64,000 bases of DNA from Lachnospiraceae bacterium. GTDB taxonomy: Bacteria > Bacillota > Clostridia > Lachnospirales > Lachnospiraceae. The stretch lies in the NCBI GenBank assembly GCA_022483465.1, contig JAKVNF010000003.1, forward strand, positions 186,001-250,000, given 5' to 3'. Below the pieces are notes generated by a model that was not told the DNA's origin, searched no databases, and was given only the letters and a program-made list of their open reading frames with translations. Shown piece after piece: positions 5,859-64,000 of the stretch (position 1 is the stretch's first letter; the number at the start of each line of letters is the position of its first letter). The position numbers and the translations under genes are program-made.

Positions 5859-6782
5859 ATGAGGGCAGACAGATATCGGTTTGACGGCGAAAAGGAATGC
5901 CATCTTGGCAAGCTCCCAACCGGAGCGGGAGAGGATGGTGTCGAGAAAGAGGAGATCGTCCGGGCTTTTGAAAAGAATCAGGAAAAGCTCGATGCGCTCC
6001 AGAACGTGTTCTATGCGGACAAGCGGGAGGGCATCATTGTGGTGCTGCAGGCCCTGGACGCGGCGGGAAAGGACTCTTTGATCCGGAAGGTGGCAACGGG
6101 CCTCAATCCCCAGGGCGTGCACGTCGCCTGCTTTAAGAAGCCCTCGGAGGAGGAGCTCTCCCACGACTACCTTTGGCGCATCAACCAGGCGCTGCCCGCA
6201 AGGGGAGAGATTGCGATCTTCAACCGCTCCTACTATGAGGACGTGGTCACCGCGAAGGTGCACCACTTAAAGGACAGCTACCACATGGCGGAGCGGATCA
6301 CGCGGCAGAGCGAGGACGCGTTCATCGAAAAGCGGATGAAGCAGGTGAAGAACTACGAGTCCTACCTCTACGAGAACAGCTACCGGGTGGTGAAGATCTT
6401 CCTGCACGTCTCCAAGCAGGAGCAGAAGAAGCGCTTCCTCGAGCGGATCGACAGGAAGGAGAAGAACTGGAAGTTCAATGCGGATGACCTGACGGACCGG
6501 AAGCTCTTCGACACCTTCATGAAGGTCTTTGAGGACACCATCGACTGCACGGCGACGAAGGAGAGCCCCTGGTATGCCCTCCCCGCAGACGACAAGTGGT
6601 ACACGCGCTACCTCCTCTCCGAGATCCTGATCGACGTCATCGAAAAGACAAAGCCCGAGTATCCGGAGCTTCCCAAGGACCAGAGGGAGCGGCTCCAGAT
6701 CTGCCGGGAGGAGCTTACCGCAGAGAACGGCGGGAGGGGACCGAAGGCAAAAGACAGGGACAGAGGAAGCAGAGCGGACTGA
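5859..6782 (+). CDS. Polyphosphate kinase 2 family protein
   Basis: A 307-residue single-domain PPK2 protein. The P-loop DAAGKDS is at about residues 67-73, and the family motif FNRSYYEDV follows near 120-128, then the lid-region Arg residues (RITRQSEDAF) and KNWKFNADDL. PPK2 enzymes transfer phosphate between polyphosphate and nucleotides, and short single-domain members mostly use polyphosphate to phosphorylate AMP or ADP. The class cannot be fixed by eye. The ATG at 5859 is preceded by AAAGGGAGG at 5841-5849. The tail after about residue 285 is Lys/Arg-rich and probably disordered. A TATACT at 5825-5830 is a possible -10. A terminator follows directly. Confidence 0.9.
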   Translation: MRADRYRFDGEKECHLGKLPTGAGEDGVEKEEIVRAFEKNQEKLDALQNVFYADKREGIIVVLQALDAAGKDSLIRKVATGLNPQGVHVACFKKPSEEELSHDYLWRINQALPARGEIAIFNRSYYEDVVTAKVHHLKDSYHMAERITRQSEDAFIEKRMKQVKNYESYLYENSYRVVKIFLHVSKQEQKKRFLERIDRKEKNWKFNADDLTDRKLFDTFMKVFEDTIDCTATKESPWYALPADDKWYTRYLLSEILIDVIEKTKPEYPELPKDQRERLQICREELTAENGGRGPKAKDRDRGSRAD

Positions 6783-6789
6783 AAAAGCC

Positions 6790-6829
6790 GGGACGGGATG
6801 CCATGAGATGGGATCCTGTCCCCTTTTTT
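6790..6829 (+). terminator. Intrinsic terminator of ppk2
   Basis: GGGACGGGAT...ATCCTGTCCC forms a stem of about 13 base pairs (one G-U, one G-G mismatch, ATGAGAT loop) followed by six Ts at 6824-6829. Confidence 0.88.
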
Positions 6830-15875: not shown

Positions 15876-16114
15876 GAGAGATGGAATTCAAGATGGAGCG
15901 GCCGGGTCTTCTGCACGAGGGGGACGAGGTGACGGTCTCCGAGGGCGTTCTTCCCAGCAACTACTACTACACGATCGACCCGTCCCTTGCGATGAGCGGG
16001 AACATCCCGTTCCCCAAGCGCCTGCACGCCCGGAAGGGGACCGTCAAGGCGGTCATCCAGAACGAGCGGGGCTATTACGTGACCGCGGTCTTTGACGAGG
16101 AGGAGCCCGAATGA
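15872..16114 (+). CDS. Small unassigned protein (80 residues)
   Basis: A short gene overlapping the previous stop (GTGA), with AGGAGG about 7 bases before the GTG, so GTG 15872 is preferred over ATG 15881. The product is soluble and beta-rich in appearance (LLHEGDEVTVSEGVLPSNYYY; GTVKAVIQNERGYYVTAVFDE), resembling a small SH3-like or KOW-like barrel. The stop overlaps the EamA start. The family is not recognised. Its place between the acyltransfer genes and the transporter suggests co-expression only. Confidence 0.7.
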   Translation: MREMEFKMERPGLLHEGDEVTVSEGVLPSNYYYTIDPSLAMSGNIPFPKRLHARKGTVKAVIQNERGYYVTAVFDEEEPE

Positions 16115-16746
16115 TGCCCGCAAAGAATGCACTCTTCTGCATCCTGGCGGCCCTGATCTGGGGCACGGCCTTCTCCGCCCAGAAGGTGGGCGGGGATGTG
16201 ATGGGGCCCCTTCTGTTCAACGGCACGCGGTCGATTTTGGGGTTCCTTGCCCTGATCCCTCTGGCGGCCCTATCGCTGCAGCGTCGCAAAAAGAGCGAGG
16301 AGGCGGGGAAGGTCCCTGCGCTTGCCCTTCGCAAAAACCTCCTCGGCGGGGCGGCCTGCGGCCTGGTCCTCTTTGCGGCCAGCACCACCCAGCAGCTCGG
16401 CATCGTGACGGAGAACGTGGGCAAGGCGGGGTTTCTGACCGCCATGTACATCATCATCGTCCCGGTGATGGACCTGATCGTCCACCGGCGCTCCAGCGCA
16501 AGAGTCTGGGTGTCGGTGCTCCTGTGCCTCTTGGGCCTGTACTTTCTGTCCTTTTCCGGAGCGGCGGGGTTTTCCGCGGGGGACGGGCTCCTCGTGGTGT
16601 GCGCCGTGATGTTCTCTCTGCACATCATGGTGATTGACCACTTCACCGGGGCGGACACTGATCCGGTGCTCCTATCCTGCGTGCAGTTTCTGACCTGTGG
16701 GATCCTGGGCATGGCATCGGCCGCCCTGACCGAGGGCATTTCTTTT
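16111..16746 (+). pseudogene. EamA/DMT-family transporter, 5' part, disrupted by insertion
   Basis: The first 212 codons of a drug/metabolite transporter: seven membrane helices, with the first EamA domain (LAALIWGTAFSAQKVG; QQLGIVTENVGKAGFLTAMY) and the beginning of the second. At 16747 an ISL3-type element interrupts the gene, and the frame reads eight codons into it before a stop at 16768-16770. The missing 95 codons follow the element at 20590-20874. Joining 16111-16746 to 20590-20874 gives one uninterrupted frame of 306 residues, the normal length for a ten-helix EamA protein. The start ATG at 16111 has GAGGAGG about 9 bases upstream and overlaps the preceding stop. Confidence 0.95.
16739..16746. 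repeat. Target-site duplication, left copy (outer element)
   Basis: TTTCTTTT directly before the element; the identical 8 bases occur at 20582-20589. Eight bases is the size made by ISL3-family elements. Confidence 0.95.
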
Positions 16747-16775
16747 GGGTCTTTCATTTTTCTTGTGTGATGCAC
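16747..16775 (+). repeat. Left terminal inverted repeat, outer ISL3 element
   Basis: Begins GGGTCTTTCATTTTTC; pairs with 20553-20581 at 22 of 29 positions. Confidence 0.88.
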
Positions 16776-16889
16776 TAAAAGAAGGCAGCCTATAGAGAAT
16801 ATCTTCTATTTACAAAAAGAGATTTCCTGATATCATCTCGATTGCACGTCGACCAAGATATGCAATACGGGATAAAAAGGAAACCTCTT

Positions 16890-17592
16890 ATGAATCAGAA
16901 TTATACATACACCGAGGCGAATGGGCAAATGTCTTTTGCTGCCCGGACTCAAAATGACTATCTGATGTTCCCAAGCCACCTGACGGGGTTCCATCAGGAG
17001 AGCGTTGAAGAGGTTCCTATTCGAGACGTCAGGCCCTTCCACTCCATGCGGAAGAGCAAACTGAGTGAGAATACCTTCAAAAGGGCTTATATTCTGCGCG
17101 GTAAATTGGACCAGCTGGACCATCCTGTATGCTCTTGCTGCGGGCGCAGAATGTACAAGAATCAGACCTACCACACGAAGATCAAACACATTCCCTTTCA
17201 GGCATGCCAAACCATCATTGAGTGCGACAAGTACCAGTGGAGATGCAATCTCTGTGGCAAGACCATCACACCGGATGTCGCGTTCAAGGCAGATGATTCG
17301 ATGATTACAAAGGAGCTTGAGCAGCTGATCATTCGCTATCTTTCTATGGATGAATTTACCCTTACGGACACGGCAATCATTACTGGCGTCAACATCAATA
17401 CGATCAAGAAGATCGATCTTAAGCGTCTGAAGAGTCTTTACGCGGATGAGAATGGCAAGCTCAAAAAGCCTGCCGCCTATGCAAGGTATCTTGCCATTGA
17501 CGAGTTCAAGCTGCATAACGGACACAAATATGCGACGCACATCATAGACCTGATAACCGGTGCGGTGCTGTTCATCCAAGCAGGCAAAACAA
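16890..17592 (+). pseudogene. ISL3-family transposase, 5' part (interrupted)
   Basis: Codons for the first 234 residues of an ISL3 transposase. Features are an N-terminal zinc-finger region (CSCCGRRMYKNQTY and later CNLCGKTI), a helix-turn-helix (TDTAIITGVNINTIKKID) and the start of the DDE domain (LAIDEFKLHNGHKYATHIID, first catalytic Asp in AIDEF). The ATG at 16890 follows AAAAGGAAA by about 9 bases. The frame then enters the nested element and stops at 17631-17633. Joined to 19674-20419 it gives a 482-residue transposase, so inactivation here is due only to the insertion. Confidence 0.92.
17587..17592. repeat. Target-site duplication, left copy (inner element)
   Basis: AAACAA before the inner element, repeated at 19668-19673. 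With one copy removed the ISL3 transposase frame reads GKTKAVVEEF across the junction. Confidence 0.93.
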
Positions 17593-17620
17593 CCTCAACT
17601 TACTGCAATAATATAGGCTC
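17593..17620 (+). repeat. Left terminal inverted repeat, inner IS
   Basis: Pairs with 19640-19667; 22 of 28 positions match on reverse complement. Confidence 0.88.
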
Positions 17621-17765
17621 TCCCCTCTGGTAAACCGCAGAATAGGGTGAGCAAGCAGCAGTTGCCAAACTAAATCAGATTCCTCGGAAATGCCGTAAAT
17701 AGGGCATTCCTGAGGCATTGGTAAAAGCTGAATATGCGGCATTCTGACCAGATGAAAATGTCAGG

Positions 17766-17794
17766 TTGACATCCTCAATACGAGCCCATAATAT
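17766..17794 (+). promoter_or_regulatory. Transposase promoter, TTGACA - 17 - TAATAT
   Basis: TTGACA at 17766-17771 and TAATAT at 17789-17794 with ideal spacing. The -10 overlaps the subterminal copy of the inverted-repeat motif, so transposase binding there could repress its own gene. Confidence 0.7.
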
Positions 17795-17815
17795 AGGCTC
17801 TAAGGAGGAACCTCT

Positions 17816-19603
17816 ATGGCCAGGATTAAGAAGGTACCAGGTAACCTGTTTCCGCTGCCCACAGGTGCGTACATTGTCGGCAAAGGGTATGTTTACGTGA
17901 ACACCAGCTCGAAGTACATCAGTGCTTCAGAGCGAAAATCCGACGGTAAAGGTTACACCACTCACACCGGCGAGTGTATTGGCGTCCTGGAAAAACCAGA
18001 GGACAAAAAATGCCGCATGTTCTATGCAAACGATAAGTATCGTTCCAATCATCAGCTTGAAGAACTTCCTGATCCTCCGGATATCGCCGACAGTATTGCT
18101 GTTGGGCTGCTTGCTGTTGTCCGCGAATTCAGTGAAAGTTCCGGACTCGCCGAGGATCTCACAACAGCTTTCGGCTCAACAGATGCCGCTCTTGTGCTCG
18201 ATCTCGCTTCCTATATGGTCTCAAGGGAATCCGCCGTCATGCAGCATTTCCCCGCATGGGCACGTGAACATGCCCACTTTTCGGGGGACATACGCAGTGA
18301 CAGCTATATCGGTATGTTCCTGAAAGAGCATCTGACAATTCCGAAGATCAAAATATTCCGCAAGCTATGGCTTTCCAGAAACATTGGCACTGGGTATGTC
18401 TACCTCTGCTATGACTCTACGAATGTCAATTCGCAGGCCGAGGGTGTTGCCATCGTACAGCGGGGACATGCCAAGGATGACCCTACACTGGATCAGGTAA
18501 ACACCGATTATGTCATCCGGCAGGAAGATGGACTGCCACTGACATATCTCCATTCTCCGGGATCGGTAACCGACATCGTACAGGCCGGGGAGATGATCCG
18601 GTTCATTGATGATACAAAGAAGCTCACCCAGATTGATGTGACGCTGTGTCTCATCTGCGACCGGGGCTACATTTCCGTCGCCAATCTGAAGAAGATGGAT
18701 CAGGCAGGCATCAGCTATCTGATGATGCTTAGGTCGGATCTGCGCCTTTTTCAGGATCTTGCCGATTCGTACATTGACACAATCCGTTCCTATAAGAACG
18801 TCATTGTAACGGCTGACGATGATGAGCGGTACGGTATCACGGTGCCGCGCCAGATGTACGAGGATGGTCCTCTGTGCTATGCCCACTTATACTGGAGTGC
18901 CAGTTACTATAGCAAAAAGCGCAAGGCAGCGATGGCAGCGATTGAATGCAAACGTGCTGAACTGGAGCAATTCATCCAGTCTCAGGGCACCGGAACAGAT
19001 CCGAAGGAACTCGAGAACAGGTTTCCTGCTTACTTCAGGCTGAAGACAGCTCCCGGTAAGCCCAGGGTTGTTATACAGAAAAAGCGCGGCCGCGGTGAAG
19101 GAACCAAGGAGGTTGAGAAACCAACCGTCCTAATCACCGGATATGAAGATGACGAAGCCGCAATCAACCGTGAGATCATGAAGGCTGGCATCATCGTGAT
19201 GCTGTCGCGTGATGAGATGACTGCACAGGAAGCTGAGATACGGTACCACAAACGCGACTGCGTAGAGAAAGCGTTCGAGGCTCTGAAGAGTCATCTCGGG
19301 ATGGACAAGATCAGCGTCACAACTGAAGAGGCGATTCATGGCAAGGGGCTGGTCTGGTTCACTGCGTCCATCATGCACGCGCTGTTGTTCAACCTCACAG
19401 ATAAGCTTCGTGCAACAGACAGAAAGAGCTACACAACAGAGTCCATGGTAGACCAACTGGAGGCAATCAAGGCTGACCGGGAACTGCCAGGCCATACATA
19501 CAAACGACGGTACAAGCTCACCCGAAAGCAAAACAGCATTTTGGGATGCTTTGGGCTGAGCGAAACAGACATCGATGAGCAATGCAAGCAACTTTCACAG
19601 TAA
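17816..19603 (+). CDS. IS1634-like (IS4-superfamily) DDE transposase
   Basis: A full 595-residue DDE transposase. Likely catalytic residues are Asp in LCYDSTNVNS (near residue 202), Asp in LICDRGYIS (near 282) and Glu in RDCVEKAFEALKSHLGM (near 482), with the Y-(2)-R-(3)-E-(6)-K type signature around the last. An AAGGAGG site at 17802-17808 lies 7 bases before the ATG at 17816. The gene looks intact and has good start signals, so the element may still be mobile. Its codon use is less GC-biased than the surrounding operon. A decayed relative is at 62.7-64 kb. Confidence 0.92.
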   Translation: MARIKKVPGNLFPLPTGAYIVGKGYVYVNTSSKYISASERKSDGKGYTTHTGECIGVLEKPEDKKCRMFYANDKYRSNHQLEELPDPPDIADSIAVGLLAVVREFSESSGLAEDLTTAFGSTDAALVLDLASYMVSRESAVMQHFPAWAREHAHFSGDIRSDSYIGMFLKEHLTIPKIKIFRKLWLSRNIGTGYVYLCYDSTNVNSQAEGVAIVQRGHAKDDPTLDQVNTDYVIRQEDGLPLTYLHSPGSVTDIVQAGEMIRFIDDTKKLTQIDVTLCLICDRGYISVANLKKMDQAGISYLMMLRSDLRLFQDLADSYIDTIRSYKNVIVTADDDERYGITVPRQMYEDGPLCYAHLYWSASYYSKKRKAAMAAIECKRAELEQFIQSQGTGTDPKELENRFPAYFRLKTAPGKPRVVIQKKRGRGEGTKEVEKPTVLITGYEDDEAAINREIMKAGIIVMLSRDEMTAQEAEIRYHKRDCVEKAFEALKSHLGMDKISVTTEEAIHGKGLVWFTASIMHALLFNLTDKLRATDRKSYTTESMVDQLEAIKADRELPGHTYKRRYKLTRKQNSILGCFGLSETDIDEQCKQLSQ

Positions 19604-19639
19604 CTGTGCTCAGCATTGGAAGTAAGCCGAGAGGCCTAC

Positions 19640-19667
19640 GAGCCTATATTTTTTCAAGAAGTTAGGG
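19640..19667 (-). repeat. Right terminal inverted repeat, inner IS
   Basis: Reverse complement of the left end at 22 of 28 positions. Confidence 0.88.
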
Positions 19668-19673
19668 AAACAA
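19668..19673. repeat. Target-site duplication, right copy (inner element)
   Basis: AAACAA, identical to 17587-17592. Confidence 0.93.
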
Positions 19674-20419
19674 AGGCCGTTGTAGAAGAATTCATGGAGC
19701 TGGTGGGTGACGACTGGATGCATCATGTAGAGGCCGTTGCCATGGATATGAACAGCGACTTCCAGGAGGCTTTCAAGGCAAAATGCGGTTGGATCCAGAT
19801 CGTTTATGATCATTTCCACATCGTCAAGAACTTCAACGAGAAGGTCATTGCCGAGGTTCGGAAGGAGGAACAGATCCGCCTGAAGAAGGAAGGCCTGGTC
19901 GAGGAAGCTGCTATCCTGAAGGGGTCAAGGAAGATACTCTGTGCCAGCAGGGAGTCCCTGCAGAAACACGATCAGGAAGCCCGTGAGGGCAAGGTGTGCC
20001 GCAAGGGATCTGCGATCTTCGGTACGACCGATTACAGGCATACCCATGACGATTTCGAGCGGCGATACGACGACATCATCAACTCGAACAAGCTGCTGTT
20101 CACCTGTGATCTGATCAAGCAGGCCATGCAGGAAGCATATGCCTCAGCCAATCAGGCGACGATGATCGAGAAGTTTACAGATATCATCGACTGGTGCAGG
20201 GGCACGAAAAATGAGCACTTTCTCTGGTTTGCCAGGCTCATTGAGAACCACTTTGACGGCATTGTGGGATACGGGCTCTGTCCGATCAGCTCCGGGAAGA
20301 TAGAGGGGATCAACGCACACATCAAGGTCATCCGCAGGAAAGCCTATGGCCTTCCAGATGATGAGTACTTTTTCCTAAAGATCATGGATGCATCCAGAAA
20401 TCCGTACAAGCGGATCTGA
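19674..20419 (+). pseudogene. ISL3-family transposase, 3' part (interrupted)
   Basis: The remaining 248 codons of the outer transposase, in frame with the 5' part once the inner element and one duplication copy are removed. It carries the second catalytic Asp (EAVAMDMNSDFQEAF), the YDHFHIVKNFN motif typical of ISL3 transposases and the C-terminal Glu region (SSGKIEGINAHIKVIRRKA). An apparent ORF starting at 19616 reads from the inner IS end and is not a gene of its own. Confidence 0.92.
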
Positions 20420-20552
20420 TGGAGAACGCTGTTCCGAGACCGTGGGCCCCTCGGCGATGCTCCCACGGTCCGCCCGGGAGTACAGATACACGGAGAGCAG
20501 AGGGCACCTGTGGAGGACCGGGGGCAGAGGACCTCGGAGACGGTCAGGAAGG

Positions 20553-20581
20553 GCTCATCCCACAAAAAAAGTGAAAGGGCC
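20553..20581 (-). repeat. Right terminal inverted repeat, outer ISL3 element
   Basis: Reverse complement begins GGCCCTTTCAC; matches the left end at 22 of 29 positions. Confidence 0.88.
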
Positions 20582-20589
20582 TTTCTTTT
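20582..20589. repeat. Target-site duplication, right copy (outer element)
   Basis: TTTCTTTT, identical to 16739-16746. Confidence 0.95.
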
Positions 20590-20874
20590 TCCCAAATGAG
20601 CCCAGCCGGTGTGGTATCATTGATCTATGCAGGTGTCTTTTCCAGCGGCATCGCCTACACGCTCCAGATCCTGGGGCAGAAGGGCGCGGATCCCTCGATC
20701 TGCTCCCTTCTTCTCTCGCTGGAGTCGGTGATCAGCCTACTGGCGGGCATCCTGATCCTGCACCAGGTGCCCACCGCCCGGGAGCTTTCGGGCTGCGCCC
20801 TGATGGCAGCGGCCATCGTCCTGGTGCAGCTGCCGGTGGGCCGGGAGAACAAATACGAGGTAATCGAGCAGTGA
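20590..20874 (+). pseudogene. EamA/DMT-family transporter, 3' part
   Basis: Codons for the last 94 residues of the transporter interrupted at 16747: SLIYAGVFSSGIAYTLQILGQ, then LLLSLESVISLLAGILIL and a last helix, all typical of the end of the second EamA domain. On its own it could start at ATG 20596, but three or four helices cannot make a transporter. The stop overlaps the GTG of the lipoprotein gene, which shows that the split gene belongs to the same operon as its flanks. Confidence 0.93.
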
Positions 20875-55970: not shown

Positions 55971-58766
55971 TTACGTGAACGATAGGGTGAAGTTGGTGAG
56001 GTTCAGGATGTAGACGTCCCGGCGGTGCTCCGGGTCCGCGGCGATGACGGCAAGCTGCCCGTGCTCCTGCTGGCCGTCCAGAGGAACCGGGAAGTCGGCA
56101 ACGGCCTGGGTGCCTGCAAGGCTCTCGACAGCCCTCGTCAGGGTGGCGGCAAAATCGCTGCTTCGCCGGATGGTGAGGTCCGAGTCGCGCTGCTCCATGC
56201 AGTGGAGGCGATCGAGGACCTGGAGCATCTGGTCGTCTGCCCGCAGGATGTGGATGTCATCGCCTGCCTCGAGCACGGCCCGGCAGACCAGAACCTCATG
56301 CGTTCCCGCGAGGTAGAAGGGCGGCGCCGAGACGGAGCAGAGATGCACCTCCGCGGCGGCCTGGTAGAACCGGTCGGTGAGGGCATTCGTGAGGTTTGCG
56401 ACAAAGGGGCTTTCCAGGAGCTTCTCCAGCGGCAGGGGCCTGCTGTAGTAGAAGCCCTGGATGAAGTTGATGCCCCACTGGCGGGCGCACTGGAGCTGCG
56501 CCAGGTTCTCGATGCCCTCCGCGATCATCATGCAGTTCGTCTCGTGGCTCATGTCGATGAGGCCCCGGATGATGATCTGCGACCTGGGATTGGCCACATC
56601 CGCAAAGAAGGACTGGTCGAGCTTGACGCCGTCCACCTTTCGGCTCATAAAGGCGGAGAGGGAGGACTCGCCCACGCCGAAGTCATCCATCCAAAGCCGG
56701 AAGCCGTAGACCTGGAGCCGGCCGATGGCCGCCTTGACAAGGCCCGTATCCGCAAAGGCGGACTCGGTGATCTCCAGTTGGAGCTGGCGGCAGGAGACGC
56801 CGTAGCGCTCGGTGATCTGCAGGATCTCCTCCGGCAGGTCTGCCAGCTGAAAGTCCCGCTGGGAGAGGTTGACGTTCACAAAGATGTTGTCGGGGATCTG
56901 GTCCCGATGATCCCGAAGATCCCGGCAGACCCGCTCCAGGATGGCAAGGTCCAGGTGGTAGATCTCGCCGGTCTTCTCCAGGTACGGGATGAAATCCCCG
57001 GGGGAGATCATGCCCTTCTCGGGGTCGATCCAGCGGCAGAGGGCCTCGTACCCGCAGGTGGTGCCGCTCAAAGACCCCACGATGGGTTGGTAGTAGGGGA
57101 CGAGGGCACCGGTCCGAAGCGCCTCGGGAAAGGCGTTGTGGACGAAGATCTCCTTGGCCCGCTTCTGCTCCATGTCGACGTCGTACCAGCAGAGGGGCTC
57201 CCGCCGCACCGCGGCATCGCGGATCGTGTCCGCCGCGTACTTGGCCCGGTACATGCCGGTCGCAAAGTCCATCGGCGGGTCGGTTGCCTCGTGGCGAAGG
57301 AGTCCTGCGCGCAGGACGACCATGTGCCGCTCCTCCAGGTGGAAGACCTCGGCCTGCATGCTGCGCAGGGTCTTCTCAAAGTCCTCCTTGGAGAGGGTGG
57401 AGAGGAGCACGAAGTGGTCCTCCTCGCGGTTGACCAAAACGTCGTTCGGGAAATACCGGAAGATCGTCTTGATGATGTTCTCGAGCAGGGTCCGCCCCTC
57501 CCGGGAGCCCAGCTTCTCGTGGATCTCGCCGAACCGGTCCACGTCGAGGTAGGCCATGTCCCACGCCTTGTCCTGCCGGTTGTTCTTCGAGAACTGCTCG
57601 GCGGCCTCGTCCAGGTCCTGGAGGCGGTTTAAGTTTTTGTCCGCCGACTGGGAGAGGAGGTCATCCGCATAGACGGGGGCGGCGCTTCCGATCAGCTGTC
57701 CGGGGCCCGCCGCCTTTGCCTGGTACAGGTGCCGGTCCGCGAGCCGGATCAAAGAGCGCAGTTCCCGCTCCGTGTGGGCGGTCCCGAGACAGTAGCCGAT
57801 GTCGCAGGTGACCTTCGCATCCTCCTGCGTCTTTCCCAGAAAATCCGTAAAGCCTGAGAGCTTTTCGGCAAAGGAGGCGCCGTCCTCGTCCATGGAGATG
57901 ACGAGAAACTCATCCCCGCCGTAGCGGTAGCACCGGTCACGGCTCGAGTCAAAGACCTGCAGGAGCCGGACGCCCACCTCGTGGAGGAGCTTGTCACCAT
58001 AGGCATGGCCGTAGGTGTCGTTGCACTGCTTGAAGGAGTCGATGTCCATCAGGGCGACGGCGAGGGTCTTCCCGAGAAAACCGGGGTAATCATCCCGGAG
58101 GGCGGTCCGGTTTAGGATCCCGGTCAGATCGTCGGTGCGGCTCTCCTGGTACAGCTCGTCCTTTCTCTTCTCCTCGGCAAACTTTGCCGACTCCGTCCGA
58201 AGGAAGCTCAGCCACCGCAGCCAGTTGACAAAGCCGCAGATGAAAAACAGCACCCCGATATCCAGCTCGTCCTGCCAGGCGATTTGATGCCGGGAGCAGA
58301 TGAGAACCACGATGACGCTGATGATGTTGAGGCCGACGTTGTGGACAAACGTCGGGACCCGGGTGTTGGGGATGAGCAGGATGGTGACCGTGACCAGGAT
58401 GTACTCGAAGAAGAAAGAGCTGTTTTGCTGGGTCGAGAAGAAGGTCAGGCTCGCGAAGACCATGTTGATGCCCATGAAGAAGTCAAAGATCACTCGGGTC
58501 CGCCGCTTTGCCACGCCGTGGAAGTGCTGGAGCTCCCGAAAGAGCAGCCCCACGAAGACCAGGTTGGTGACGAAGATGACCAGGTAGACAAAGGTCGCAT
58601 TGATCAGGGGGAGCACAGAGCCCACGGAGAAGGGTGCATAGGTGCCGACCAGCGAGATGAACGAGAGGACGCACAAAAGCAGGCTTGTTATTTCATGACA
58701 TATATCATATACTGTGGTCAGGAGGTGTACTATGCCAGTCAGCCCCGAGACCAAAGAATTCGTCAC
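55971..58766 (-). CDS. GGDEF-EAL protein with N-terminal membrane region; 5' end cut by an insertion sequence
   Basis: As read, 931 residues, but the start is uncertain because an ISAzo13-type element sits at the 5' end and the first residues (up to about DICHEI) are read from or next to it. Five or six membrane helices (about 25-190) are followed by a GGDEF domain with an intact RYGGDEFLVI near residue 280. A second GGDEF-like domain (about 400-520) has the motif degenerated to NREEDHF. An EAL domain starts at YEALCRW near 571, with IFVNVNLSQ, ITESAF, WMDDFGVGESSL and NFIQGFYYSRPL. The protein should be able to make and break cyclic di-GMP. Its own promoter may be lost. Confidence 0.85.
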   Translation of the reverse strand: MTNSLVSGLTGIVHLLTTVYDICHEITSLLLCVLSFISLVGTYAPFSVGSVLPLINATFVYLVIFVTNLVFVGLLFRELQHFHGVAKRRTRVIFDFFMGINMVFASLTFFSTQQNSSFFFEYILVTVTILLIPNTRVPTFVHNVGLNIISVIVVLICSRHQIAWQDELDIGVLFFICGFVNWLRWLSFLRTESAKFAEEKRKDELYQESRTDDLTGILNRTALRDDYPGFLGKTLAVALMDIDSFKQCNDTYGHAYGDKLLHEVGVRLLQVFDSSRDRCYRYGGDEFLVISMDEDGASFAEKLSGFTDFLGKTQEDAKVTCDIGYCLGTAHTERELRSLIRLADRHLYQAKAAGPGQLIGSAAPVYADDLLSQSADKNLNRLQDLDEAAEQFSKNNRQDKAWDMAYLDVDRFGEIHEKLGSREGRTLLENIIKTIFRYFPNDVLVNREEDHFVLLSTLSKEDFEKTLRSMQAEVFHLEERHMVVLRAGLLRHEATDPPMDFATGMYRAKYAADTIRDAAVRREPLCWYDVDMEQKRAKEIFVHNAFPEALRTGALVPYYQPIVGSLSGTTCGYEALCRWIDPEKGMISPGDFIPYLEKTGEIYHLDLAILERVCRDLRDHRDQIPDNIFVNVNLSQRDFQLADLPEEILQITERYGVSCRQLQLEITESAFADTGLVKAAIGRLQVYGFRLWMDDFGVGESSLSAFMSRKVDGVKLDQSFFADVANPRSQIIIRGLIDMSHETNCMMIAEGIENLAQLQCARQWGINFIQGFYYSRPLPLEKLLESPFVANLTNALTDRFYQAAAEVHLCSVSAPPFYLAGTHEVLVCRAVLEAGDDIHILRADDQMLQVLDRLHCMEQRDSDLTIRRSSDFAATLTRAVESLAGTQAVADFPVPLDGQQEHGQLAVIAADPEHRRDVYILNLTNFTLSFT

Positions 58767-60031
58767 AAAGATAAGTACCGAAATGATGCCTTACCTCAAT
58801 GAGAAGCAAAAACGCATCTTTGTAGGCATCATCGCAAATGCAATCGGTTATGGTGGAATTGAAACTGTCAAAGATATGACAGGCAAGTCACGCACAACTA
58901 TCGCAGCCGGTGCATCCGAAATGAAAGCAGCTGCCACAGTATCCGATGCCACTAAGAAGACGGACAGTGTTAAGCCAAATGGCGCTCCGCGCCTCAGAAA
59001 ACCAGGAGGCGGAAGAAAGAGTGCTGTCTCAAAGAATCCGGATTTGCCGAAGTGGATCGAGGAAATCATCGATAACAGTACATATGGGGTGCCAACAAAG
59101 GTACTGCGCTGGACTACGATGAGCCTTCGCAAAATCGCAGAGCAAGTCAATACAGATCACAATGTAAAGATCAGTCAGAACATCGTAAGCGATGTATTGG
59201 ATCAGCTGGGGTATAGCAAGCAGCAGAATCAGAAGAGCCTCCAGCTGGGTGAGCAGCACCCCGATCGGAACGCACAGTTTGAATTTATCAACAACAAGTC
59301 AGAATCTTTTTTGAATGAGAATCAACCGGTTATTTCAGTCGACACCAAGAAGAAAGAGCTGGTTGGCAATTTCAAGAATAATGGCCAGGAATACCGAAAA
59401 TCCAAGGATCCCAGGAAGGTTTTGGATCATGACTTTACCATTGAAGGACTGGGAAAGGTCGCACCATATGGCATCTACGTTGTGAACGATAACACTGGTT
59501 TTGTTAACCTTGGAACAGACCATGATACGGCCGAATTCGCATCAGAAAGCATACTCCGCTGGTGGGAAGCTGTAGGAAAGAATACTTTCCCCGATGCAAA
59601 AAAACTGTACATTACCGCAGACAGCGGTGGAAGCAATGGCGTGCGCGTGCGGTTGTGGAAGTACGAACTGCAACAGATCGCGGATTATACCGGCCTTGAA
59701 CTACACATATCGCATTATCCATCTGGTACATCCAAATGGAACAAGGTTGAGCATCGTCTTTTCTGCTATATCTCAAAGAATTGGCAGAGCAAGCCGTTGA
59801 TCGATATTGAAACGATAGTGAGCCTTATTTCCTCAACAACGACAAACAAAGGTCTCAAGGTAATCTGCAAGGTTGATGAAAACCATTACGAATTGAAACG
59901 TAAGGTTAGCGACGAGGAAATGAATTCCATTTGTCTTGAACGATGCGAGCCCCTTGGCTATTGGAATTACATCATTCGTCCTCACAAAACTTGAGGTATT
60001 TGTTTCGTTACAGTTCCTTAGAATCGAAAGA
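58686..60031 (+). mobile_element. ISAzo13-type insertion sequence (ends approximate)
   Basis: The element surrounds one transposase gene. Ends are not sharp: GTTATTTCATGA (58687 on) and the reverse complement of GAATCGAAAGAAAC (60020-60033) are weakly alike, and only a 2-base duplication could be present. Its AT content and codon use differ from the host genes. Joining the sequence after 60031 to that before 58686 gives a plausible start for the GGDEF/EAL gene (ATG at 60045-60043, minus strand). Confidence 0.6.
58732..59994 (+). CDS. ISAzo13-family transposase
   Basis: A 420-residue DDE transposase. It has an N-terminal helix-turn-helix (YGGIETVKDMTGKSRTTIAAGA) with a RLRKPGGGRKS basic patch, and a second DNA-binding segment (MSLRKIAEQVNTDHNVKISQ). 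The DDE core has QPVISVDTKKKELVGNF (first Asp), LYITADSGGSNG (second Asp) and SHYPSGTSKWNKVEHRLF (Glu), all typical of ISAzo13. AGGAGG sits 6 bases before ATG 58732. It is intact, so the copy may be active. Confidence 0.92.
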   Translation: MPVSPETKEFVTKISTEMMPYLNEKQKRIFVGIIANAIGYGGIETVKDMTGKSRTTIAAGASEMKAAATVSDATKKTDSVKPNGAPRLRKPGGGRKSAVSKNPDLPKWIEEIIDNSTYGVPTKVLRWTTMSLRKIAEQVNTDHNVKISQNIVSDVLDQLGYSKQQNQKSLQLGEQHPDRNAQFEFINNKSESFLNENQPVISVDTKKKELVGNFKNNGQEYRKSKDPRKVLDHDFTIEGLGKVAPYGIYVVNDNTGFVNLGTDHDTAEFASESILRWWEAVGKNTFPDAKKLYITADSGGSNGVRVRLWKYELQQIADYTGLELHISHYPSGTSKWNKVEHRLFCYISKNWQSKPLIDIETIVSLISSTTTNKGLKVICKVDENHYELKRKVSDEEMNSICLERCEPLGYWNYIIRPHKT

Positions 60032-62696: not shown

Positions 62697-64000
62697 TTAA
62701 GCACCACTATCGCACGCTTTTGCAAGATGATATTGTAATACCAACTTTCCTTCAGATCGATCCATGCTGATAGGACACTTAATTCCGGCTTTGCTATAGA
62801 GCTCATTCGCAATCCGCTGTGGTTCCCCGGTCATGATTTTCGACTTGTACACAATGCATTTCTGATTCCGAAGAGACATGAACAGCTCTGTCCTCTCTGT
62901 TGCTGCTTTCTTTGTGAGTTTCTGAATATACGTTGATCGTTGATGCGATCATCGGGAGCAGCAAATGCCCGCGGAGTGCCTCCTCACTGTGTATCCGCAG
63001 CGGCGTCAGCTTTGAGATTCCCTTGCCAATGTCAAAGTACTGCTCCACCAGCTGCCTTGTATAGTATGCCGGGAGGATATCCTCCGTTGTATAGCACAGG
63101 GAAGTCAGGAGTACAAAGTATCCTGCTTTGTCCAGACGCTTTCCGACCTGTGACAGATTTTGCTTATTTTTCATCGCAGATGCGGTCACCTTCCGTGTCT
63201 CGTCAGCAGCACGCTCCACGTCATAGCCAAGATATGCATGGGCTTGATGATCGAGTTTTGCATCGACTTTTACCGGAACCTGCTTGATATACACATACCG
63301 GTCAAGGTACTGTACCGGATTTTCCGATCGTTTCAGCGCGTCTGCCTGATTCCTCACAAGGTCCCTGTAGATGGATGTGTTATCCGGGAGTCTTGTGAGC
63401 CAATCGATATTCGCACCGTATAGCTCATCAAGATTCGGTGCAGTGCAGTAGCCGGCATCAGGAATCGCCATATCTACTTTCATGCCACGTTCATTGGCTT
63501 CATTGATGATCGGGTTAAGGTAGAGCAGTCCACGATATTTCCTGGATTGACGCGGAACATCAGCGGGTATCCGCTGTCTCTCTGCAAGATGGTTGTCATT
63601 CGAACTTCCCGACTGATCCTGCCGTTGTGATTGCTTACTGCGGTCAGCGGAAAATGAATACTGTTTGGAAGCCCTGTACTGTCAATCAGTACAGCGGGAT
63701 TGTCATATGCATTCTCTTTGACCCACTTGAGATGGGCATCGAAGTATGTGCTGAGGTTTTCCTCTTTGCCTAGTGAGGCAAGAAAGTCGGAGATTTTCTG
63801 CGAGGTGAGGTTTGCGTTGGGATACAGAACATTTGCATAATTCCCTTCATATCACCCTTTGGCATGGCCGTTTGCCTCATTCCAAAGGGTGTAATACTGG
63901 ATCATGGCGTACAGTGTATCCTTGTTCCGGCAGTCGATGGTGTTAAGAACATCGCTGTACTTCATCTTCTTGAGAAGCTCATCAACGAAAAACGAATCTC
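62697..64000 (-). pseudogene. Decayed IS1634-like transposase (runs off the window end)
   Basis: On the minus strand the pieces of one DDE transposase lie in three frames. The first segment, from the window edge to about 63510, has VLIDSTGLPNSIHF (first Asp) and an in-frame TGA at 63852-63854. A frameshift near 63510 leads to the second segment (MAIPDAGYCTAP, YYTRQLVEQYFDIGKG), and another near 62930 to the third (FMSLRNQKCIVYKSK), ending at 62697. At least three lesions mean it is dead. It is related to the intact transposase at 17816 by fold but is a different element. Confidence 0.85.

Follow-up and report, generated by a model that had tools for sequence, protein, structure and literature searches.

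How did an eamA gene of a Lachnospiraceae bacterium come to be split by two transposable elements, one inside the other, and what does the inner element carry in front of its transposase gene? The window analyzed here is a stretch of 64,000 nucleotides (G000:C3:186001-250000) from a host genome of 4.30 Mb in 4 contigs. An initial annotation had described an IS1634-like element within an ISL3 element within the gene of an EamA transporter. Neither nested insertions nor target duplications of these lengths (6 and 8 bp) are new; taken by itself, the nesting is a clear trace of transposition, though an ordinary one in a genome rich in IS elements. We consider weightier a motif of the terminal repeat of the inner element that recurs over the predicted promoter of its transposase gene.

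A transporter gene split by nested elements

The 5' part of eamA, a gene of the DMT transporter type, is found at 16111-16746 on the plus strand (212 codons when the first target copy is counted; Pfam EamA, 57.2 bits), and its 3' part is found at 20590-20874 on the same strand (94 codons and the stop; Pfam EamA, 44 bits on 20596-20874). Each gene fragment has one Pfam EamA match, the second of which is partial; two EamA domains are usual for EamA/DMT transporters. Between both parts, at 16747-20581 (plus strand), there is an ISL3-family element of 3835 bp, the terminal repeats of which begin with GGGTCTTTCA and GGCCCTTTCA, and which is flanked by the 8-bp target duplication TTTCTTTT at 16739-16746 and 20582-20589. 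Its transposase gene is in turn divided into an N-terminal part at 16890-17592 (plus strand; Pfam Zn_ribbon_ISL3; 98-100% identity to the other main matches in the genome) and a C-terminal part at 19674-20419 (plus strand; Pfam DDE_Tnp_ISL3, 128.5 bits on 19616-20419). The IS1634-related element of 2075 bp that separates them occupies 17593-19667 (plus strand). Its left terminal inverted repeat is at 17593-17620 (plus strand), the right one is at 19640-19667 (minus strand), and the 6-bp target duplication AAACAA of its insertion into ISL3 is present at 17587-17592 and 19668-19673. The outer element measures 1754 bp once the inner element and one copy of AAACAA are subtracted. The G+C content dips to 51-53% in two 2-kb steps at the elements, versus 60-62% in the flanking steps.

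The boundaries, the terminal repeats, and both target duplications had been annotated correctly almost to the base. Joining the ISL3 frame from MNQ restores the transposase of 482 residues that had been proposed, a length shared by the 16 uninterrupted copies that were aligned, and AAACAA occurs singly at the corresponding place in all three of these copies that were read there. The joined eamA flanks likewise give the proposed protein of 306 residues, and both family assignments agree with NCBIfam scores above the respective cut-offs. The inner transposase scores 172.6 bits with the IS1634 model (cut-off, 100), and the intact ISL3 copy L027 scores 222.1 bits with the ISL3 transposase model (cut-off, 180), with which the split halves in the window singly reach 86.8 and 122.2 bits.

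To follow the fate of the transporter gene, we compared the neighborhood with loci of other genomes. The nearest named relative found was uncultured Lachnospiraceae RUG433 (locus L082), in which all 10 query pieces of the neighborhood, including both eamA parts, matched in the same order; among the other 14 loci compared, L083 has seven of the 10 pieces and 13 have eamA alone. The eamA gene of RUG433, with which the 3' part in the window shares 77% identity, is uninterrupted: the match to the N part extends to locus base 6531, and that to the C part starts at the next base, 6532. The initial annotation had suggested looking for such a gene in related genomes, and the junction in RUG433 contains TTACTTTT once, with no gap and with seven of eight bases identical. 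The proposed loss of the transporter gene is borne out; its syntenic partners are still present in the host genome. The surrounding operon had been considered intact, which is true of its reading frames and, beyond these, is more than a sequence can tell. The eamA gene of RUG433 (about 6001-6819) lacks 105 nt, in frame, relative to the gene in the window, and this gap may be due to decay or to an assembly fault.

In five of five same-genus relatives (L099-L103), eamA adjoins the partner genes. A match at an E value of ≤1e-30 was obtained in 22 of 24 same-genus genomes (host excluded), the open frame being 300-367 codons long each time, and no match at this threshold was obtained in 16 genomes from other families of the order, many genomes being incomplete drafts. 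Because eamA is uninterrupted in RUG433 and in most same-genus genomes, its loss is probably confined to a single lineage. At L063 and L002 (C2:534283-534590), a MITE is inserted at the start codon of the sole other EamA homologue (31% identical) that this query found in the host genome; the duplication of 8 bp there, TTTTCATT, includes the ATG on the other strand.

ISL3 copies and the order of the insertions

Two ordinary DDE transpositions almost certainly account for the locus. An ISL3-family element would have entered eamA, duplicating 8 bp, and an IS1634-related element would have entered the transposase gene of this ISL3 copy, duplicating 6 bp. We observed nothing that contradicts these two insertions, and both empty sites are represented, one by intact ISL3 copies of the same genome and the other by the eamA gene of RUG433. 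Both ends are present in both elements. The inner element is probably still able to make its own transposase, whereas the interrupted ISL3 element is unable to do so and could be mobilized by the proteins of other, intact copies.

The search with the N-terminal part of the ISL3 transposase gave 26 matches in the genome, corresponding to 25 copies, since an IS1595 element has divided one copy into two matching pieces. Eighteen copies are full length and uninterrupted (L279 and L280 among them). Element nesting is ordinary in this genome, since six of the 25 copies, the one in the window included, carry another element between their halves: a 308-bp MITE splits L138, L139, and L141, an IS1595-type element splits L142, and L143 is split by a 1740-bp element that has a 6-bp duplication and a 533-amino-acid frame matching the IS1634 model. 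In the stretch examined, copy L140 is without its first 146 bases and adjoins an IS1595-type element. Perfect 8-bp duplications, mostly AT rich, were found at 24 of the 25 copies, the exception being L140 with its missing left end, and this frequency excludes a chance origin of the target duplications. Terminal repeats starting with GG and 8-bp duplications are features of the ISL3 family. The element in the window, whose terminal inverted repeats begin with GG, shares both with this family, along with the type of transposase, and differs from the intact members in being interrupted. In three copies (L138, L139, and L140) the break falls on one and the same 8-bp stretch at the start of the transposase gene (ISL3 positions 147-154). 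The MITEs in L138 and L139 are opposite in orientation to each other, and the break in L140 is at the IS1595-type element, which suggests that a hot spot was hit independently each time.

Both insertions had been described as recent. The ISL3 element in the window differs from L029 at 1 of 1754 bases, and, among 397 host-family genomes, this one alone was found to contain the DNA of this ISL3 element (E value of ≤1e-50; two best candidates scored per genome); on these grounds the events do look recent.

The order initially proposed, ISL3 first and the IS1634-like element later, holds insofar as this ISL3 copy received the inner element; that the copy was by then in eamA exceeds what the sequence alone can establish. 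The ISL3 copy was nevertheless likely already in eamA when the inner element arrived: a second copy of the ISL3::IS1634 pair is absent among the 25 ISL3 copies, which favors insertion in place. The pair might instead have been assembled elsewhere and have entered eamA as a unit, moved by the ISL3 transposase of intact copies, which are a possible source of this protein. The movement of a nested pair has a precedent in this genome, where an IS91-type element with an ISL3 element inside is found, identical over 4657 bp, at two places, so that nested pairs can travel here. However, the mover in that case was more likely the Y2 transposase of the IS91-type element than that of ISL3, and only one ISL3 copy of the 25, that in the window, contains an IS1634-related element of this kind, so we consider entry as a unit unlikely. 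The IS91-type composite, which encodes the Y2 transposase and an integrase-family protein, is located at 4244-8900 of L097 and at 3537-8509 of L098; one of the two was later hit by a MITE, and blastn gave no match to a plasmid relative of the composite.

The inner element and its promoter

The inner element has five copies in the genome, namely, that in the window, L004, L005, L006, and L007. Identity to the window's copy over most of the length is 99.5% for L007, 99.1% for L005, and 98.3% for L006, whereas L004 is present in two pieces around a MITE, with 99.5% and 100% identity. Perfect 6-bp duplications were observed at three of the five copies; L007 has none and L005 lacks the right end. 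In a phylogenetic tree the inner element did not group with the top-scoring (canonical) IS1634 members and was placed opposite to them across a split with a support of 0.992, a split chosen after seeing the sets as the one that best separates them. We therefore refer to the element as IS1634 related. The IS1634 model has 118 matches in the genome, many of which are below the cut-off and some of which are pieces of one element; a fragment of another IS1634-type transposase is found within the window at 62803-63483 (minus strand). For ISPfe2, of the IS1634 family, the table row ends in a 6, which we take as the repeat length (PMC3281130), and the legend for the Acidiphilium IS1634 gives six-base repeats, termed inverted repeats, at three insertion sites (PMC4549789). 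The inner element shares with the family a model score above the cut-off, 6-bp duplications, and a single long transposase gene. It differs from the canonical side of IS1634, where none of 10 testable elements has the terminal-repeat motif at the promoter.

The transposase gene of the inner element is intact and encodes 595 amino acids (17816-19603, plus strand). Its predicted promoter, TTGACA-17-TAATAT at 17766-17794 (plus strand), was obtained by a consensus scan only and ends 21 bp before the ATG at 17816; the region contains five consensus promoter sites, compared to a mean of 3.8 in shuffled sequences, and is thus not clearly enriched. The inner motif of the left terminal repeat, ATAATATAGGCTCT at 17608-17621, recurs as an exact 14-base copy at 17788-17801, forming a direct repeat 180 bp apart, and the predicted -10 element lies within the putative operator GAGCC-9-GGCTC at 17782-17801 (plus strand). 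It is just the inner part of the terminal repeat that recurs at the promoter. The palindrome of this element is weak, the best-scoring inverted repeat of the region being located elsewhere (p = 0.343).

Correspondence between ends and promoters

To determine how general this arrangement is, we compared the 75-nt promoter region of each element with the ends of every subfamily in the same genome. From the 19 elements considered, Q was left out for being cut off and R and T for resembling N and K, and five of the remaining 16 (A, B, K, O, and P) had no terminal repeat that scored better than shuffled sequences, leaving 11 subfamilies. The end search in this comparison covered the promoter region, yet all 11 ends are located at -94 or farther upstream. 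In eight of the 11 subfamilies the promoter was best matched by the ends of the same element, the exceptions being D, I, and N. The observed sum was attained in none of 200000 permutations, and in 7 of 50000 once the three subfamilies that had prompted the idea were removed. Mismatched pairs of ends and promoters averaged 6.4-7.35, and the ISL3 element and one IS1595 element scored 7.5 and 6, respectively, close to these averages. The motifs vary among subfamilies, yet they match the own ends; examples are GGCTC, GCTAGTA, GTACCTAAA, CTCACTAC, TTACACTAAA, and TATACCAAGG. In subfamily C, the promoter match begins at the outer side of the aligned terminal repeat.

Elements from other genomes were then analyzed in the same manner, with the promoter region excluded from the end search, as was also done in the order-wide and per-element tests. 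For lower-scoring elements from other genomes of the host family, 32 of which were hand-picked for long frames and flanks and 13 of which were usable, a sum as high as that observed was obtained in none of 100000 permutations, with the own ends ranking first in seven of 13. The 30 top-scoring canonical IS1634 elements, chosen automatically, gave a null result with the eight usable ones (61131 of 100000 permutations; first rank in none of eight). The elements dropped beforehand (19 of 32 and 22 of 30, respectively) mostly lacked a terminal repeat that beat the shuffles. An order-wide set, in which nine of 25 loci were used, gave a weaker signal (19 of 100000 permutations): three same-family members match over 13-16 nt, the first ranks of L193 and L200 are due to AT-rich matches, which we do not trust, L199 was counted with a score of 0, and L197, L202, and L203 had no match between ends and promoter.

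The 19 operator labels used in the tree include those of B and O, which had been assigned by eye. A shuffle test of each element made no use of these labels and took from the tree only the split. On the side of the inner element, 16 of 20 elements passed at p ≤ 0.05 and 13 at p ≤ 0.01, versus none of 10 on the canonical IS1634 side. Eight own-genome subfamilies passed, and D, I, N, and L251 failed. Some of the elements have similar motifs (L259, L261, L262, and L267), so that not all are independent, and the acceptance of ends depends on random shuffles, with usable sets that differ by a few elements between the test on other genomes and the shuffle test of each element (e.g., L252, L278, L233, and L236). 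Promoter palindromes at p < 0.05 were detected in nine of 15 own subfamilies, in 12 of 30 elements of the lower-scoring set, and in none of 29 of the top-scoring set; two of eight host genes of the window also passed this test.

We propose, with a probability of roughly 60%, that elements of the IS1634-related clade carry a second, often palindromic copy of a terminal-repeat motif over the promoter, that the transposase acts as its own repressor, and that each subfamily limits its own copy number independently. The inner transposase would bind the motif copy over its own promoter and so limit its own production. Since the motif varies among subfamilies in step with the ends, the transposase probably represses itself, and a protein that reads both the ends and the promoter would be the simplest cause of the matching motifs.

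The palindrome may alternatively act as RNA, with no protein operator involved, by masking the ribosome site in read-in transcripts, as occurs for the transposase ribosome site of IS10 and IS50. This reading is doubtful. Among the related subfamilies, two have strongly folding leaders (z = -6.37 and -4.11), and the translation of ISPpu9 is under the control of a leader structure (PMC8450116). The fold of the inner element's own leader, however, is not clearly above that of shuffled sequences (z = -1.09), on which ground we rejected RNA masking as the only account of the leader, and an RNA role leaves unexplained that the motif matches each element's own ends. Both roles could coexist. A search of Rfam gave no family at the gathering score in the inner leader or in the MITE (L003 and L062). 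Very improbable is that the promoter copy, which directly repeats 14 nt of the left end at a distance of 180 bp, is the relic of an older left end that persisted after the capture of a new outer end, since the promoter of the inner element repeats no more than the inner part of the terminal repeat and since other subfamilies, many promoter regions of which are palindromic, show the feature with motifs that differ.

Self-repression by the transposase is known in other families. In IS1, IS911, and IS30, the transposase is autoregulated by binding to the terminal repeat, and the promoter is within the end itself. The arrangement proposed for the inner element shares with them the idea of an end-binding protein that, here putatively, also touches the promoter; it differs in that the promoter has a separate, internal copy of the motif, located 180 bp away from the one in the left end. 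We found no description of such a separate copy at an IS1634-related promoter in the literature searched, which covered few subscription journals. If self-repression is true, the coexisting element families form a natural set of paired protein and site specificities, copy-number control is directly testable with promoter fusions, and the finding bears on how many IS subfamilies coexist in one chromosome.

Several other mobile elements were noticed. An ISAzo13-family transposase gene is present at 58714-59994 of the window, where a quick alignment gave only a weak match of the ends. The 308-bp MITE (e.g., L062, L145, and L146) is absent from the window; its 32-nt left end has 90 exact matches in the 4.3-Mb genome, and at least 40 full copies are 100% identical (40 of 219 candidates scored), with others at about 94-97%. 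The ends of a 1187-bp IS1595-type element at C1:635737-636923 are nearly the same as those of the MITE, and this element is likely its parent. At L145 (C1:1013500-1017500) and L146 (C2:927500-930000) the MITE forms head-to-tail arrays, four copies in one and two in the other, with an exact spacing of 316 bp (308 + 8), as if each insertion had reused the same 8-bp target.
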